From: Thermoplasmatales archaeon
GTDB lineage: Archaea > Thermoplasmatota > E2 > DHVEG-1
Length of the DNA stretch: 40,429 bases
Direction of reading: 5' to 3'
Assembly: GCA_020343515.1 (NCBI GenBank)
Contig: CP070798.1
Location: 189,729 to 230,157 of the forward strand
The notes beneath the pieces are model-generated. The model was not told where the DNA came from and did not search any database. It worked only from the letters and a program-made list of their open reading frames with translations. The position numbers and the translations under genes are program-made. Shown one piece after another: positions 25,879-32,452 of this stretch (positions are counted from its first letter, which is position 1; each line of letters begins with the position of its first letter).

Positions 25879-26136
25879 ATGATTAAAGCAATATTGTTTT
25901 CACTTGAAAATTGTATAAAATGCAATCAAACAAAGGAACTTTTATCTGATAGAGACGATGTTGAAATAGTAACATTTCCTCATAGCATTAATGAATGGAG
26001 TAACGAAAACCTCGAACTTGCAAAATCTCATGATGTTTTTGATGAGTTACAAAAGACAGCACCAGTATTGTGGCTTGACGGAGAAAAAAAGGTAGGCTAT
26101 CTACGGATTAGAAAATGGCTGCAAGATAACAAGTAA
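25879..26136 (+). CDS. Glutaredoxin/thioredoxin-like small protein
   Basis: 85 residues, cytosolic. CIKC (Cys12, Cys15) after the first beta strand, and TAPVLWLDGEKKVGYLRIRKW in the second half (the cis-Pro position is APV), fit a glutaredoxin-like fold. Good ribosome site GAGGAG. It probably carries electrons between a cytosolic reductant and disulfide substrates. First gene of the redox cluster that runs to 29170. Confidence 0.75.
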   Translation: MIKAILFSLENCIKCNQTKELLSDRDDVEIVTFPHSINEWSNENLELAKSHDVFDELQKTAPVLWLDGEKKVGYLRIRKWLQDNK

Positions 26137-26161
26137 TCAACCCTTCTTTTTTTCAAACTTC

Positions 26162-26170
26162 TTTATATAC
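26162..26170 (+). promoter_or_regulatory. TATA box of the thioredoxin gene
   Basis: TTTATATAC centred at 26166, 30 bases before ATG 26196, which decides the start: an earlier ATG-like frame opening at 26172 would lie upstream of the transcription start. The message is therefore nearly leaderless. Confidence 0.55.
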
Positions 26171-26195
26171 TATGATTTTTATTAGCCAAAATAAA

Positions 26196-26606
26196 ATGGA
26201 TGAATTAGAACAAATTAAAAAAAGAAAATTTGAACAATTAAAAAAACAATTAATGAATAGAGGTAAAAATATGAATGAAAATTTTCCAAACGAACCATTG
26301 AAGATAACAGATGCAGATATTAATGATTACATTAAGAGATATTCAACCCTGGTAATTGATTGTTGGGCACCATGGTGTGGCCCATGTAGAATGGTTGGCC
26401 CCATAGTTGAGGAATTAGCAAAAGAAATGCAGGGTATAATTGTGTTTGCGAAACTGAATGTAGATGAAAATCCGGCTACATCAATGAAATATCAAATAAT
26501 GAGTATTCCAACTATGTTGATATTTAAAAATGGTAACTTAGTAGATAAATTTGTAGGCGCAATTCCTAAAGAAGAATTGAAACAGAAACTTAAAACCTAT
26601 CAATAG
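26196..26606 (+). CDS. Thioredoxin with charged N-terminal helix
   Basis: 136 residues. The first 25 residues form a charged helix (MDELEQIKKRKFEQLKKQLM), as in several archaeal thioredoxins; then a canonical thioredoxin with WAPWCGPC (Cys61, Cys64) and the cis-Pro loop MSIPTML. No signal peptide, so cytosolic. It reduces protein disulfides and would be re-reduced by thioredoxin reductase or a ferredoxin-linked enzyme. The next gene begins only five bases after its stop, so the cytosolic thioredoxin and an extracellular thioredoxin-fold lipoprotein are co-expressed. Confidence 0.9.
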   Translation: MDELEQIKKRKFEQLKKQLMNRGKNMNENFPNEPLKITDADINDYIKRYSTLVIDCWAPWCGPCRMVGPIVEELAKEMQGIIVFAKLNVDENPATSMKYQIMSIPTMLIFKNGNLVDKFVGAIPKEELKQKLKTYQ

Positions 26607-26611
26607 TCAAG

Positions 26612-27121
26612 GTGAACAAAATCAAAAAAGTTAGATATTTAATTTTTCTTATATTTTTAGTTTCAATTTTAATAAGTGGATGTTTTAGTGACAATGAGGT
26701 TAAATGGGGAGATGCGCCAGATTTTACATTGACTACAATCGATGGTGAAACATTTACATTATCAGATTATCTTGGAAAAGTTATAGTAATTGATCTTATG
26801 GCTACTTGGTGTTCTCCTTGTATACAGCAAATGAGTCAATTAGAGGCCGTAGTAGATGAATTTAAAGATCAAATTATAGTTATATCTATTGATGTTGATA
26901 AAGGTGAAACAACTAGCGATATTTTAAACAAATTTGGCGAATATGTTGATAAATGGACGTTCATACTAGATACCGATGAAATAGATGTATCTAGTGCATA
27001 TCAAGTTACTTCAATTCCAAAAATCGTGATAATTTCTCAAAATGGAAATATTTATTATTCACATGTGGGTTACATGGACTATTCAGCATTATCTGCTAAA
27101 ATAAATGAATTGTTAAAATAA
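26612..27121 (+). CDS. TlpA/ResA-like thioredoxin-fold lipoprotein
   Basis: 169 residues, GTG start with an AAGGTG-like site. Signal peptide ending in a lipobox (SILISGC, Cys24), so lipid-anchored on the outer face. The mature domain begins DAPDFTLTTIDGETFTLSDY, typical of the TlpA/AhpC-TSA family, with WCSPC (Cys67, Cys70) and cis-Pro in TSIPKIV. It probably reduces disulfides of extracellular proteins, perhaps cytochrome or metal-site Cys, using electrons passed across the membrane by a neighbour in this cluster. Confidence 0.9.
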   Translation: MNKIKKVRYLIFLIFLVSILISGCFSDNEVKWGDAPDFTLTTIDGETFTLSDYLGKVIVIDLMATWCSPCIQQMSQLEAVVDEFKDQIIVISIDVDKGETTSDILNKFGEYVDKWTFILDTDEIDVSSAYQVTSIPKIVIISQNGNIYYSHVGYMDYSALSAKINELLK

Positions 27122-27149
27122 AAGCATAAAATATAGGAGGCATAATCGC

Positions 27150-27674
27150 ATGAAGAAGACTTTGAAAAACGCCTTAGTAATAACGCTAGTAGCTGGACTT
27201 TGTTTATCATTTAGTGGGATAGTAGCTGCAGTTGACCCAAGCTATGAGGAGATTATTGTTTCACCAGCGGAACCACCTCGTTTATCAGAAGTATCGTTTT
27301 CTGTTGACGTCACGGGAGAAAACATTGAAGAAGTTAGAGTAATAGTGGAAGAATGCACTGCTCAAATATGTTACCCAGATCTGCGAAACGAAAGCATGAC
27401 GAATACCCAGGGTAATACCTGGGAAGGCACTGTCACATTGATACATGATGACGCCATATATTGCACTACGTGGCTAGTAATTAAAAGCGATGGAACCTGG
27501 TACAATTTCAAAGATTTAAGGAAAGAATTTAATCTCTCAATAGATACGGGAAACGGTGATACAAATGGAGGAGATGGCAATGGGGGCGATGGAGCCCCAG
27601 GCTTTGAGCTTATACTACTAGTAATTTCTTTAGTCCTTGCGTTGTTCATCTACAAGAAAAAGAGAAGGAGATGA
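27150..27674 (+). CDS. Secreted Cys-containing protein with PGF-type sorting tail
   Basis: 174 residues. Signal peptide (VITLVAGLCLSFSGIVAA), a beta-rich domain of about 100 residues with three Cys (69 and 74 in EECTAQICYP, 105 in IYCTTW), a Gly/Asp/Asn linker, then PGFE (150-153) followed by a hydrophobic helix and KKKRRR. This end is the three-part signal for archaeosortase processing and lipid attachment at the surface. The Cys could be the redox target or a metal site. Strong GGAGG site; overlaps the next gene by four bases, so the sorted protein and the membrane ferredoxin protein are coupled. Confidence 0.85.
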   Translation: MKKTLKNALVITLVAGLCLSFSGIVAAVDPSYEEIIVSPAEPPRLSEVSFSVDVTGENIEEVRVIVEECTAQICYPDLRNESMTNTQGNTWEGTVTLIHDDAIYCTTWLVIKSDGTWYNFKDLRKEFNLSIDTGNGDTNGGDGNGGDGAPGFELILLVISLVLALFIYKKKRRR

Positions 27675-28504
27675 ACCTGAGATTCAGGAGATTAATCTCA
27701 CAGGTTGTCTTCTTTTTTTCTGCTAACCTAGGGTTTAAAATAGAGGGAATTTTTCCAGGATTAAAAACAGGTTTTTGTTATCCCTTTTTTTATTGTCATG
27801 CTTGTCCTTCTGCCACTGCCGCCTGCCCTTTACGAGCCATTGAGATTGGAGTGTACGAGGGTAAATGGAATTGGAAGCTTATATTCTACCCCATTTTGAT
27901 AATTAGTTTTGTCGGCGTTATTTCTGGTCGAGGGGTATGTGGCTGGGCATGTCCTATTGGGCTCCTTCAGCGAGTTACAGGAAAAGTCGCAAAGAAATTA
28001 AAAAAGAAGCAACCTTTTTTGAAAAAACTTGGTCAACATAGGTTAGAACCTTACCTACGATACCTGAAATATATTGTTTTTATTGGTTTAGTAGTGGTAA
28101 CTCCGATTTTGGTAGGTTTTATGTTTACTGACATATGTCCAGTTGGATATCTTGTTGGAACCATTCCTATTTCAATTCTCAATCCCGGAGAATTTAGTCC
28201 AAATGAGTTCTTCTACATAGCACTAGTTATATTCATACTTTTCATTGTATTGATTTTCACTGTAGAACGTGGTTGGTGTCGGTATCTCTGTCCAATTGGT
28301 GCAATGCTGGCTCCATTCAACAAGGTGAGTAAATATCAGGTCTCTGTTGATAAAGATCAGTGCATACATTGCAATATATGTTCAAATGAGGCATGCCCTA
28401 TGGGTATAGACGTTCCAAATATGGAAAGAGATCCAGAATGTATACTATGTGGAAAATGCATAGAGGCCTGTCCAAAGGATGTAATTAAATTTGAGGGGAG
28501 ATAA
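27671..28504 (+). CDS. NapH/MauN-like membrane iron-sulfur protein
   Basis: 277 residues. About four transmembrane helices with repeated Cys-Pro motifs: FCYPFFYCHACPSATAACP (35-53), CGWACPIG (90-97), DICPVG, CRYLCPIG (203-210). The C-terminus carries a two-cluster ferredoxin: CIHCNICSNEACP (231-243) and CILCGKCIEACP (257-268). The family (NapH, MauN, RdxA and similar) moves electrons between quinol or cytosolic donors and redox proteins across the membrane. Between a sorted Cys protein and a double-CxxC thioredoxin-like protein, it is the natural trans-membrane step of this cluster. No CcdA or DsbD is visible here. Confidence 0.85.
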   Translation: MNLRFRRLISQVVFFFSANLGFKIEGIFPGLKTGFCYPFFYCHACPSATAACPLRAIEIGVYEGKWNWKLIFYPILIISFVGVISGRGVCGWACPIGLLQRVTGKVAKKLKKKQPFLKKLGQHRLEPYLRYLKYIVFIGLVVVTPILVGFMFTDICPVGYLVGTIPISILNPGEFSPNEFFYIALVIFILFIVLIFTVERGWCRYLCPIGAMLAPFNKVSKYQVSVDKDQCIHCNICSNEACPMGIDVPNMERDPECILCGKCIEACPKDVIKFEGR

Positions 28505-28507
28505 ACT

Positions 28508-29170
28508 ATGAAAAAGATGTCAGTTGTGCAAGTAGCTTTGCTAGTCCTGATAGCTGTAAGCTTTGGGGAGTTAGTTTTTGATTTTAGCGTATATGAGGAA
28601 CTGTTTTTAGATTTTAATATATATGATGATGTTCATGATACAATAGTTTCTACACTATGTCTAAGCTGCATTAAACTAGATCCAGTGTCTCGTCTTGATT
28701 TCGTATTTGAAACAGGAAATGGGGAAGAGCATCCTGAGTTCGTATGGAAGAATTTAACAAAGGGTCCGTTGTTTATTGAATATAGAAGCGATGTATGTAA
28801 AGCATGTGACGACATGGCACCCATAGTAAAAGATATTTTCAATGTATCTTTTGAAAAAGAAGAAACTTTGTATAAATTAGTTAACTATAGTGGATTAAAT
28901 ATTCATTTCTATCATATAAACCTTGATCATGCCTCACAAGCACAGAAAGACTCATTTCCAATATATGATAAAGACAATATAAAGGGTGTTCCCATGTTTG
29001 TAGTTATCACCGTTAAATATGATCGAGGTACTATCAAGCCATGTTATACAGCAGCATATGGAACTCTTGGGCTCGACACGGACGAGGAACGGAGAGACTT
29101 ATTAATAGATATGATCGATGATGGGGTTAAGCTCTATGAACAAAACCGTGAAGGATACAAATATCCTTAA
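28508..29170 (+). CDS. Membrane-anchored double-CxxC thioredoxin-like protein
   Basis: 220 residues, starting three bases after the 4Fe-4S gene. An N-terminal helix (VVQVALLVLIAVSFGELVF) anchors it; then a pair CLSC (51, 54), and a thioredoxin-like domain beginning PLFIEYRSDVCKAC (Cys97, Cys100) with GVPMFVV as the cis-Pro loop. Two separate dithiol sites in one chain are what a relay protein would have: one to accept, one to hand on electrons. Its place at the end of the cluster and outside the membrane suggests it acts between the iron-sulfur membrane protein and extracellular targets. The gene is followed by a hairpin. Confidence 0.75.
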   Translation: MKKMSVVQVALLVLIAVSFGELVFDFSVYEELFLDFNIYDDVHDTIVSTLCLSCIKLDPVSRLDFVFETGNGEEHPEFVWKNLTKGPLFIEYRSDVCKACDDMAPIVKDIFNVSFEKEETLYKLVNYSGLNIHFYHINLDHASQAQKDSFPIYDKDNIKGVPMFVVITVKYDRGTIKPCYTAAYGTLGLDTDEERRDLLIDMIDDGVKLYEQNREGYKYP

Positions 29171-29198
29171 ATTTATAAAAGTATTATAATAAAAAAGA

Positions 29199-29220
29199 TG
29201 GAAAGGGAAATCCCTTCCTT
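29199..29220. terminator. Stem-loop between convergent genes
   Basis: GGAAAGGGA/TCCCTTCC with a very short loop, followed by TTTAG on the plus strand and preceded by an A run; it can end transcripts from both sides. It lies between the end of the redox operon (29170) and the minus-strand small gene (29220). Confidence 0.6.
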
Positions 29221-29384
29221 TAGATTTCGTTGTTTTTTATTTTTTCTTTTAATATATCAAACTGTTCTCGTGTAAGTGTGCAAATATTTTCTTTTTCACC
29301 TATTACTACTTGGTTTTCTTGCACATCAACCGCAGGACACTTGGGTGGTATACAAACACCTTCCCTACATAAAATTATTTTCAT
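29220..29384 (-). CDS. 54-residue Cys-containing small protein
   Basis: ATG at 29384, TAA at 29222-29220, with GGAGG about ten bases upstream. Product: a strand, then CREGVCIPPKC (Cys6, 11, 16), a middle strand pair with a fourth Cys at 35 (KENICTLTREQFDILKE) and a charged helix. Cytosolic and probably metal-binding or redox-active. Convergent with the redox operon with the hairpin between. Too short for usual length cut-offs but the ribosome site and codon pattern support it. Family not recognised. Confidence 0.65.
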   Translation of the reverse strand: MKIILCREGVCIPPKCPAVDVQENQVVIGEKENICTLTREQFDILKEKIKNNEI

Positions 29385-29415
29385 ATTTTATCTGCCTCCA
29401 TTTAACACATACTAA

Positions 29416-29648: not shown

Positions 29649-31031
29649 TCAAATATATTGTGTTATTTCCACCTTGCTTCGATCCACTTTTGAAACAATC
29701 CGTGCTTCGTTTTTACCTACCTTTTTGATCTCCTTTAAAGATATCTCAACCCCTCGCCCAGCTTTCTCCTGGAAACCTTGCTTCAACAGAGAAAACAGTT
29801 TGTCAACAGACGGCTCTTGGTCCCTTAGTTGCTCATCGATGACAACCTGTACCTCAATATGCGTCATATCATGTTGGATTATTCGTGTATCTTTAAGCTT
29901 GTTGGTTTTTAATTCATATAAAATTCGACCGAAAATCTCTGTTATTCCGGAGGCAAGCAATACCCTACCACCAGGTAGGATAAGCGATAAAACATTTCTT
30001 CCATATATCTTTTTGATGAGACCACTCGATATTTCACAGCTGCACGGTTCATAAAGTGGCGCTGCAATATCATTAATCGCATTATACCGAATAATTGGTG
30101 TTCCGTTTCCAAACAGCTTTGTTACAAGTACGAGACCTGGCTCACTGGAGGAAACTGGTTTTCCATCTTTGAGAAATTCCAAATGTAAAAAATCAGACAT
30201 GATGTGATAATGTCCTTGTTTACATTCAAACGCAATAGGGCCTGTCTCTGTTGCCCCATAAACCTCGAAAATCTGAGTTTCAAATTGTTCTTCAATAAAA
30301 TGTTTCAGTGACTTGTCTAGTACAGCCCCAGTTGTTGCTATGTATCGCGGTCTTATGTTTTTTCCAAGTCCTTTTTCCTGTAGAAGAGCCAGGTGGCCGA
30401 GCATACCCACATACCCGCCTATAAACTCTGGCTTAAAATCATTGATCTCCCTGATGATTTTTTTTGGATCGTCATTGGTATCCAACCATTGAATATTGTT
30501 CATCAGACGATCGAGTTTCAGATGTGGAGATAATCCCTGAGTGATATATCCGCTTTCAGCAGTGTGAGGGGCAAAATCTCCGATGATCGTCATTTTGGTT
30601 TTTCTCCAGTTAATTCCATATTCTTTTATGGTCCGTATATAGCCAAAAAGACCACGCACGATATCATACATGTCAACAAAGATAGGAAAAGATTTGCCAG
30701 TTGTTCCAGAGGTAGAAACCTCAATTAGATTTTTCTTATCCACACCTGATGGAATAATGCCATTGGGATAATAATGTTTAATCTCCTCCTTAGAAATTTC
30801 TGGAAGCTTTGTGATATCATCTAATCCATGTATATCCGCTGGATGAATTCCCATCTCTTTGTATTTATCATGATAAACAGGAACTGTATAGGCATATCGC
30901 ACAATCTGTCTCAACCTTTTGTCCCGATATTTCCGTAACTGCTCTTCATTGATTTTCCAGAGTCGATCGATGTCAAAAAAATAGCTTTTGAGAACCTTGG
31001 AAATGAAAATTGGATTGAATAAATAATTCAT
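29649..31031 (-). CDS. PaaK-like adenylate-forming enzyme (phenylacetate-CoA ligase/F390 synthetase family)
   Basis: 460 residues. STSGTTGKSFPIF (around 107-119) is the phosphate-binding loop of adenylate-forming enzymes; YIATTGAVLDKS and FEVYGATETGPIAFECK match the PaaK/coenzyme F390 synthetase family, and the C-terminal domain (VSKVDRSKVEITQ) is present. The family activates an aryl or other carboxylate (or F420) with ATP. No thiolation domain. It lies 110 bases from the divergent B12-type radical SAM gene at 31142, so a shared promoter region and a joint role in making or modifying a lipid or small product are possible. GGAGG stands 13 bases before the ATG, with an in-frame GTA nearer. Confidence 0.8.
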   Translation of the reverse strand: MNYLFNPIFISKVLKSYFFDIDRLWKINEEQLRKYRDKRLRQIVRYAYTVPVYHDKYKEMGIHPADIHGLDDITKLPEISKEEIKHYYPNGIIPSGVDKKNLIEVSTSGTTGKSFPIFVDMYDIVRGLFGYIRTIKEYGINWRKTKMTIIGDFAPHTAESGYITQGLSPHLKLDRLMNNIQWLDTNDDPKKIIREINDFKPEFIGGYVGMLGHLALLQEKGLGKNIRPRYIATTGAVLDKSLKHFIEEQFETQIFEVYGATETGPIAFECKQGHYHIMSDFLHLEFLKDGKPVSSSEPGLVLVTKLFGNGTPIIRYNAINDIAAPLYEPCSCEISSGLIKKIYGRNVLSLILPGGRVLLASGITEIFGRILYELKTNKLKDTRIIQHDMTHIEVQVVIDEQLRDQEPSVDKLFSLLKQGFQEKAGRGVEISLKEIKKVGKNEARIVSKVDRSKVEITQYI

Positions 31032-31141
31032 TTGTACCCGAGGGCCTCCTTTTTGAACATAACTAACCTAAACATTGAGGAATATAAGTGGATAAGGTAT
31101 ACTACTTAAATATATGTTTCTGATAATTGGCATGGGTTTAG

Positions 31142-32452
31142 ATGAATATACTGATAATAGAAAACACTTGGATGGGAGGTTCCAAGTATGGATTCTTTGA
31201 AAAAACATTGCTTACTGCTTTTTCTATTCTTCCCACATTATATGCTCGAAAATTAGCAGCTATTACCCCAAAGAAACATTCCGTTAATGTGTTAACTGAA
31301 AGGTATTCCAAGATCAATTTTGATGAGCCTTATGACATCGTAAATATAAATTTTACAACATCTACGACTCCTAGAGCTTATGAAATCGCAGATAAATTTA
31401 GGGAAAAAGGTACAACCGTGGTTTTAAGCGGCCCCCATCCATCTGTTCTTCCTGAAGAAGCAAAACAACACGGAGATAGTGTTTTGTTAGGATGGGGAGA
31501 ACTCAATTGGCTTCAATTGTTAAAGGATTTTGAAAACAATGAATTAAAGCCATTTTATCAACCTATTAAATACGATAAATCTGTGCACATTCCTCCAACC
31601 AATATTCAATTGCCGGGTTTTGTTATCACAGGTGCCATTGAGGCAACTAGAGGATGCCCATATAAGTGCGATTTTTGCCCTGAAACAAACCTTCCTGGAG
31701 GTTCACAGTTTTATGCCCGCCCTGTGGACGATGTAATAGCTGAAATAAAATCTATGCCGCAAAAAACTCTTATGTTTTATGATACTTCTCTCACAATAAA
31801 ACCAGATTATAGCAAGTCTTTATTTAAAGAAATGAAAGGGTTGCATAAAAAATTTTTTTGCAATGGGAATGTCGATGAGCTTGCCCGGGATGTGGAACTT
31901 GTAAAACTTTCCAAGGAAGCTGGTTGTGTGTCATGGCTTATTGGATTTGAATCAATTTCTCAGGAAACTATTGATAAAGTTGGTAAAAAAACAAACAAAG
32001 TCATGGAATACTTCCAAGCTGTAAAAAATGTACATGACAATGGAATGGCAGTTGTTGGTTGTTTCATGTTTGGTTTTGATAATGATAAGAAAAATGTTTT
32101 TGACGAAACACTTAAAGCGATAAAGGAATTGGAAATTGATGTTGCTGATTTTTGTGTTTTAACGCCATTCCCAGGTACGCCTCTTTTCAACAGACTTGAT
32201 AAGGAAGGTCGCATTCTAACCAAGGATTGGACAAAGTATACGATGAAAAACGTGGTATTTGAACCAAAAAACATGACTGCTGAGGAATTGTTAAATGGCG
32301 TAAAAAAAATGTATTATGAATTTTATTCCAATCCTTATACTGTAAAAAGAATTGTTAGAAGTTTAAGATTAGGATTGTATCCATTTTTCATGGCTTTAGC
32401 AAGAAATGCAGTTGCTAATATGAATAGAAGAGCATTTTATACTTCAAAATGA
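31142..32452 (+). CDS. Cobalamin-binding-type radical SAM protein
   Basis: 436 residues. The N-terminal 150 residues form a Rossmann-like domain of the B12-binding kind (IVNINFTTSTTPRAYEIAD, then VVLSGPHPSVLPEEAKQHGD), without an obvious His lower-ligand motif. The radical SAM cluster motif is ATRGCPYKCDFC near residue 172. The C-terminal part has LTPFPGTPLFNRL and a helical tail, as in the DUF4070-like group. Such enzymes often methylate or couple unreactive carbon; archaeal lipid enzymes GrsA/GrsB belong to the wider class, but this protein is shorter. A close paralogue is at 38265. TATA-like TTAAATATA lies about 30 bases before the ATG. Confidence 0.85.
   Translation: MNILIIENTWMGGSKYGFFEKTLLTAFSILPTLYARKLAAITPKKHSVNVLTERYSKINFDEPYDIVNINFTTSTTPRAYEIADKFREKGTTVVLSGPHPSVLPEEAKQHGDSVLLGWGELNWLQLLKDFENNELKPFYQPIKYDKSVHIPPTNIQLPGFVITGAIEATRGCPYKCDFCPETNLPGGSQFYARPVDDVIAEIKSMPQKTLMFYDTSLTIKPDYSKSLFKEMKGLHKKFFCNGNVDELARDVELVKLSKEAGCVSWLIGFESISQETIDKVGKKTNKVMEYFQAVKNVHDNGMAVVGCFMFGFDNDKKNVFDETLKAIKELEIDVADFCVLTPFPGTPLFNRLDKEGRILTKDWTKYTMKNVVFEPKNMTAEELLNGVKKMYYEFYSNPYTVKRIVRSLRLGLYPFFMALARNAVANMNRRAFYTSK

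Follow-up and report, generated by a model that had tools for sequence, protein, structure and literature searches.

The operon and its products

The window analyzed here, a stretch of 40,429 nucleotides from an uncultured Thermoplasmatales archaeon (contig CP070798.1 of assembly GCA_020343515.1, positions 189,729 to 230,157), carries six co-directional open reading frames (ORFs) at 25879-29170 (+), separated by 35, 5, 28, -4, and 3 bases, that form a candidate trans-membrane thiol-redox operon built around a NapH-like iron-sulfur (Fe-S) protein (Table 1). An earlier interpretation made from the letters alone, the sequence-only reading, had described six consecutive plus-strand genes with tiny gaps or overlaps, which the ORFs confirm; among their products, it had recognized a cytosolic thioredoxin (TRX), a TlpA-like lipoprotein, and a membrane protein with a ferredoxin tail, all in agreement with profile matches, as well as a CxxC glutaredoxin-like (GRX) protein, for which the match is weak. 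The interval had been drawn as 25879-29384; the operon accounts for it up to 29170, and the remainder holds a small conserved ORF on the opposite strand. We use dCxxC as the name of the double-CxxC thioredoxin-fold protein encoded beside the NapH-like gene. An Rfam search around the operon gave no match.

Table 1. Operon genes and adjoining features, in window coordinates (TM, transmembrane segment; Ig, immunoglobulin).
Feature	Coordinates	Strand	Basis
GRX/NrdH-like cytosolic protein, 85 residues, CIKC	25879..26136	+	weak profile match, PF00462 E 0.002
Cytosolic TRX, WCGPC	26172..26606	+	TIGR01068 above cut-off
TlpA/ResA-like lipoprotein thioredoxin, LISGC lipobox, WCSPC, outside membrane	26612..27121	+	PF00578, PF08534, PRK03147 matches
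Surface protein: signal helix, Ig-like beta-sandwich, C-terminal PGFE + TM + basic tail	27150..27674	+	NF045529, AlphaFold
NapH-like 4-TM protein, two-cluster ferredoxin tail inside	27671..28504	+	Fer4_5, NapH/MauN-like profile matches
dCxxC: N-terminal membrane anchor, CLSC (C51/C54), thioredoxin-fold domain with C97/C100	28508..29170	+	alignment, PDB profile matches
Small ORF, ~54 residues, four Cys (MKIILCREGVCIPPKCP...)	29235-29391	-	
Divergent pair: AMP-forming ligase (-), radical SAM/B12-type protein (+)	29649-32452	-/+	

Conservation, fusions, and cysteine patterns

The order TRX-TlpA-CTERM-NapH-dCxxC, where CTERM is the surface protein, recurs in ~20 genera at about 30-80% protein identity, which exceeds chance by far, and it persists across family and order while the flanking genes differ between families. 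A gene-neighborhood comparison across relatives, proposed for the NapH/dCxxC pair with the sequence-only reading, found the pair conserved: dCxxC adjoins the NapH-like gene in 37 of the 38 loci of the class, the sole exception being a locus at a contig end. A TlpA-like gene is present at 23 of these loci and a cytosolic TRX gene at 21, and a GRX homologue lies upstream in many family members, often, not always, as the first gene. The distant families f7 and f10 have dCxxC ahead of NapH and lack the remaining operon genes; NapH and dCxxC thus constitute the core, as only that pair persists there. The NapH-like proteins of these two families (L077, L079, L080) have an extra N-terminal TM with a C-x3-C pair ahead of it, and their gene pair is flanked by aspartate-dehydrogenase-like and GNAT-like genes.

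Several genomes have joined these genes into single ORFs. In G321 and G356, ORFs of 960 and 930 residues, respectively, combine the NapH-like protein, a TM-CLGC-thioredoxin fold corresponding to dCxxC, a second CxxC domain, and a C-terminal Ig-like domain that bears C-x4-C and is followed by a TM. Elsewhere, dCxxC carries a fused Ig domain with C-x4-C at its front, next to NapH (G259, G261, L196), and G036 has a TlpA-Ig/CTERM fusion. Through these natural fusions, NapH, dCxxC, TlpA, and the Ig protein are connected as components of a single machine.

The NapH-like protein matches Fer4_5 (PF12801) with 53.8 bits against a cut-off of 22, and has in common with NapH/MauN (TIGR02163, PF12801) this match, twin CxxxCP motifs (C90/C94 and C203/C207), and the eight ferredoxin cysteines of two 4Fe-4S sites, all of them conserved. 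Nevertheless, it stays under the curated NapH cut-offs (PRK09477/TIGR02163; 93.2/213 and 80.2/234 bits) and differs from NapH in its additional outer-face cysteines C42, C52, and C156, positions occupied by V, S, and N in E. coli NapH, which shares the twin CxxxCP and the ferredoxin cysteines. C42 and C52 occur in 95/95 aligned NapH-like members and C156 in 88/95, with Asp in the others, in an alignment whose 40 bacterial members were chosen by a regular expression requiring the loop cysteines and whose 55 archaeal members were chosen without it. The charge distribution puts the ferredoxin tail and the first CxxxCP loop inside (12 lysines plus arginines) and the C156 loop outside (0), so C42 and C52 are predicted to lie outside. 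The partners also differ, being thioredoxin-fold proteins here and NapG/NapC/NapAB for NapH; no NapG, NapC, NapA, or other respiratory reductase was found among the partly annotated neighbors compared by homology with the window genes.

Outside the class, 16 loci carry the loop motif, and dCxxC accompanies the NapH-like gene at 14 of these; it is absent from all NapH-like loci whose loop differs. A quick tree groups the motif-bearing proteins, plus one other (L256), with a support of 0.81, and the bacterial ones as a clade with a support of 0.997. A Foldseek search with the NapH-like model returned ferredoxin fragments only, and the viral contigs searched held no relative of the protein. Six NapH-like proteins (L156, L157, L159, L160, L161, L162) contain an extra membrane segment of ~110-150 residues between their halves, with Asp in place of C156 and the dCxxC partner kept.

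The partner itself had been noted as membrane-anchored with two CxxC pairs. Both pairs are there, in a protein that is more than that and that domain searches left unnamed: the dCxxC family profile matches PDB structures of PDI and ResA (both at E 2e-4) and of thioredoxin, and C51, C54, C97, C100, and the cis-proline P162 are invariant in the alignment. By sequence, we assign dCxxC as a thioredoxin-fold protein with the active site C97/C100 and a separate membrane-proximal CLSC (C51/C54). It is homologous (hhalign 98.3%, E 2.5e-14) to a lipoprotein family without CLxC, a member of which precedes a TlpA-CcdA fusion in the source genome (672711-673406). A single thioredoxin family thus has CcdA as its partner at one locus and NapH at the other.

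The surface protein, previously taken for a three-Cys archaeosortase substrate, does score above the cut-off for the Heimdall-CTERM tail (NF045529). Of its three cysteines, only C69 and C74 are conserved in the alignment (C-x4-8-C[YFH]), and the archaeosortase PF09721, matched in 21 of 60 relatives, was not found in the source genome, so that the argument for sorting is the tail itself, which would imply a sortase of divergent sequence or a different mode of anchoring. AlphaFold predicts an Ig-like sandwich (predicted local distance difference test, pLDDT, 84.6), and Foldseek returns Ig-like matches (NPC2, FnIII-type, CD8). Its fusion to TlpA or dCxxC in other genomes makes the protein seem part of the machine, as a partner or a domain, more than a mere substrate, which favors one half of the earlier suggestion of substrate or partner. 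An Ig-like fold with a Cys pair (C-x4-6-CYP here, CADAGFCYP in nDsbD) is also a likeness to nDsbD. The candidate homology was rejected: the hhalign probability is 4.9%, only 1 of 16 members matches DsbD_N (E 0.17), and nDsbD is absent from the top Foldseek matches.

CcdA and the clostridial counterpart

The statement that no CcdA, DsbD, or ScsB is present holds within the window, where DsbD_TM (PF02683) matches no operon protein, and not for the genome, given its TlpA-CcdA fusion. We therefore rejected the absence of CcdA as a key argument. A full NapH-like gene is present in 47 of the 60 relatives, 33 of them without CcdA above the cut-off. The proposed anticorrelation with CcdA fails in the archaeal class as sampled (CcdA in 19/64 NapH-positive versus 3/16 negative genomes; Fisher p 0.54) and appears in Lachnospiraceae, the family of Blautia schinkii, where 75 of 200 genomes have the NapH type, 58 CcdA, and 11 both (odds ratio 0.29, p 6e-4, uncorrected for phylogeny).

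An exchange is seen in G013, a genome without NapH, in which a short CcdA follows GRX-TRX-TlpA at the position that the Ig protein, NapH, and dCxxC occupy elsewhere; its GRX and TRX are ~70% identical to those of the window. The operon resembles DsbD/CcdA systems with TlpA/ResA in having a membrane conduit, external thioredoxin-fold partners (TlpA and dCxxC), and a cytosolic thioredoxin alongside, and the two are further connected by the dCxxC homologue adjoining CcdA in the source genome and by the exchange in G013. The conduit, however, is unrelated: in place of a two-Cys thiol shuttle, it is an Fe-S protein whose ferredoxin domain is of the 2x4Fe-4S type. The CcdA cluster of the source genome (L082:6130-9428) consists of a permease, an MTH895-type thioredoxin, the dCxxC-paralogue lipoprotein without CLxC, and the TlpA-CcdA fusion, the last three genes being conserved in several relatives. 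At L153:6606-7133, L154:6070-6594, and L196:2542-3063, the NapH-like gene is followed by one for a CxxC membrane protein of 173-175 residues, loosely CcdA-like by eye and without a significant Pfam match.

A genome-wide search found NapH-like proteins 33-38% identical in Clostridia and others, and these bacterial proteins share the outer loop C-x5-C-Y-S-C-P-x5-CP and FCK..CP.G. At 32 of 50 loci, the clostridial NapH-like gene has a TlpA-like gene within ~3 kb, and at 47 of 50 the 4-kb stretch around the NapH-like gene encodes a peptide ending C[LM]xC[IV]GxG (0/50 on the reverse strand). The scanned example of this ~50-residue membrane peptide belongs to the CD1871A family (NF040920). Judged by eye, and over a length too short to test, its TM followed by CxECIGIG resembles the N-terminal part of dCxxC, where a TM is followed by CLSCIKL or CLGCLGL. 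CcdA went undetected in 30 of the 38 genomes with the clostridial NapH type. CD1871A clusters are like the archaeal operon in their adjoining TlpA-like and NapH-like genes and outer loop motif; unlike it, they are split over separate genes and have no Ig/CTERM partner. The pattern suggests that the putative relay occurs as an independent bacterial version, a triplet of TlpA, CD1871A CxxC peptide, and NapH-like protein.

A candidate iron-sulfur thiol relay and its alternatives

Gene linkage, fusions, the cysteine pattern, a charge-consistent topology, the homology of dCxxC to a CcdA partner, and the arrangement in G013 lead us to consider it reasonably likely that the operon encodes an Fe-S trans-membrane thiol-redox relay, probably reducing outward. 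We infer a transfer of electrons from the cytosol to external disulfides and, with it, the direction, the donor, the way electrons cross the lipid, and the final substrates. Electrons from reduced ferredoxin and/or thioredoxin would enter the NapH-like protein at its cytosolic ferredoxin domain with two 4Fe-4S sites, cross the four-helix membrane part bearing the twin CxxxCP motifs, and reduce the outer-face site (C42/C52, with C156 or Asp). This site would pass them to the membrane-proximal CLxC of dCxxC and thence to its thioredoxin-fold CxxC, which would reduce TlpA and the Cys pair of the surface Ig protein; these two may in turn keep other surface proteins reduced or repaired. The relay would thereby do the job of CcdA/DsbD by iron-sulfur chemistry. 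The outward direction is suggested by the TlpA and thioredoxin genes and by CcdA standing in for part of the operon. The connection of the NapH-like protein to external thioredoxin-fold proteins, first proposed in the sequence-only reading, is well borne out by the 37/38 adjacency, the fusions, the outer-face cysteines, the bacterial version, and the CcdA exchange in G013.

Several observations weigh against such a relay. CcdA coexists with it in 14 of the 47 NapH-bearing relatives and in the source genome, so the relay is not simply a CcdA replacement, and the idea of an Fe-S protein replacing CcdA/DsbD is favored by G013 and opposed by these genomes; a fixed link to one respiratory enzyme, the other feature that would have spoken against it, was not seen among the partly annotated neighbors. 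We know of no cofactor that would connect the inner CxxxCP motifs to the outer site across the membrane. AlphaFold gives the NapH-like protein a mediocre model, with pLDDT <50 in the N-terminal cysteine loop, and profile comparison gives no support for homology between the Ig protein and nDsbD (PF11412). Finally, VKOR was found in 0/60 relatives. Its absence from all of them keeps alive an opposite, inward flow, in which dCxxC and TlpA are thiol oxidases and the NapH-like protein drains electrons to ferredoxin, replacing DsbB/VKOR anaerobically; NapH-like Fe-S proteins can in principle carry electrons both ways. We regard this as unlikely: reduction is what an operon with TlpA/ResA-type thioredoxins and a cytosolic thioredoxin would fit, and in G013 the position of the Ig-NapH-dCxxC segment is occupied by CcdA, which is a reducing transporter and has a dCxxC homologue as its partner.

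Cytochrome c maturation is the usual task of TlpA/ResA proteins, and the source genome encodes a CcmF/CcsA (PF01578) protein, so the operon could be an analogue of CcdA-ResA dedicated to the maturation or repair of a single enzyme, either a surface metalloprotein or a c-type cytochrome, with NapH feeding only that pathway. This is quite unlikely: PF01578 occurs in only 10 of 60 relatives, 6 of them among the 47 NapH-bearing genomes and 4 without NapH, leaving 41 NapH-bearing genomes in which it was not detected, and no respiratory enzyme is common to the flanking genes compared, which vary between families. On this distribution, cytochrome c maturation was rejected as the general client. NapH proper passes quinol electrons to periplasmic reductases, and the core cysteines conserved here are common to E. 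coli NapH; the NapH-like protein might accordingly be a quinol dehydrogenase, or an Fe-S assembly or accessory protein, that shares only transcription with the thiol-redox genes. We hold this to be very improbable in view of the NapH-dCxxC fusions in two genomes, the NapH/dCxxC pairing across archaea in two gene orders, the co-occurrence of the loop cysteines with a dCxxC partner, and the triplet of TlpA, CxxC peptide, and NapH in bacteria.

To our knowledge, the outward thiol conduits described so far (DsbD, CcdA, ScsB) all use cysteine shuttles of one superfamily. Ferredoxin:thioredoxin reductase, a soluble catalytic protein, is like the proposed relay, compared by function, in coupling Fe-S electrons to thioredoxin disulfides, and differs in its solubility. 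The literature searched contained no paper describing CD1871A, a NapH-TlpA system, or one combining NapH, TlpA, thioredoxin, and 4Fe-4S; matches to NapH plus TlpA were, by title and abstract, unrelated. Bacterial flavinylation systems use NapH-like proteins modularly, sending electrons to an extracytosolic FMN (flavin mononucleotide)-binding domain (eLife 2021, PMC8238504). The likeness is a NapH-like conduit to an extracytosolic carrier, which is an FMN domain there and thioredoxins here; the passages of that paper on thioredoxin-linked clusters treat them under DsbD and contain no NapH-thioredoxin system.

There is a fair chance that a NapH-like conduit coupled to thioredoxins represents a new class of thiol reductant. 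The broader proposal has about an even chance of being right: a CcdA/DsbD-independent Fe-S trans-membrane thiol reductase in Thermoplasmatota, widespread in split form in Clostridia, where it would be the main reductant route to external thioredoxins in the absence of CcdA. If true, an Fe-S conduit unrelated to DsbD/CcdA/ScsB would let anaerobes spend low-potential ferredoxin electrons directly on surface thiols, explain how Clostridia with secreted TlpA and no detected CcdA keep TlpA reduced, and assign a function to CD1871A CxxC peptides. The question is open to direct testing in culturable gut Clostridia.

Downstream, the small ORF lies between the operon and the AMP-ligase gene, and its DNA is conserved in three congeneric genomes. 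The adjoining AMP ligase/radical SAM pair stands beside the operon in many family members, and the family also includes genomes without it.

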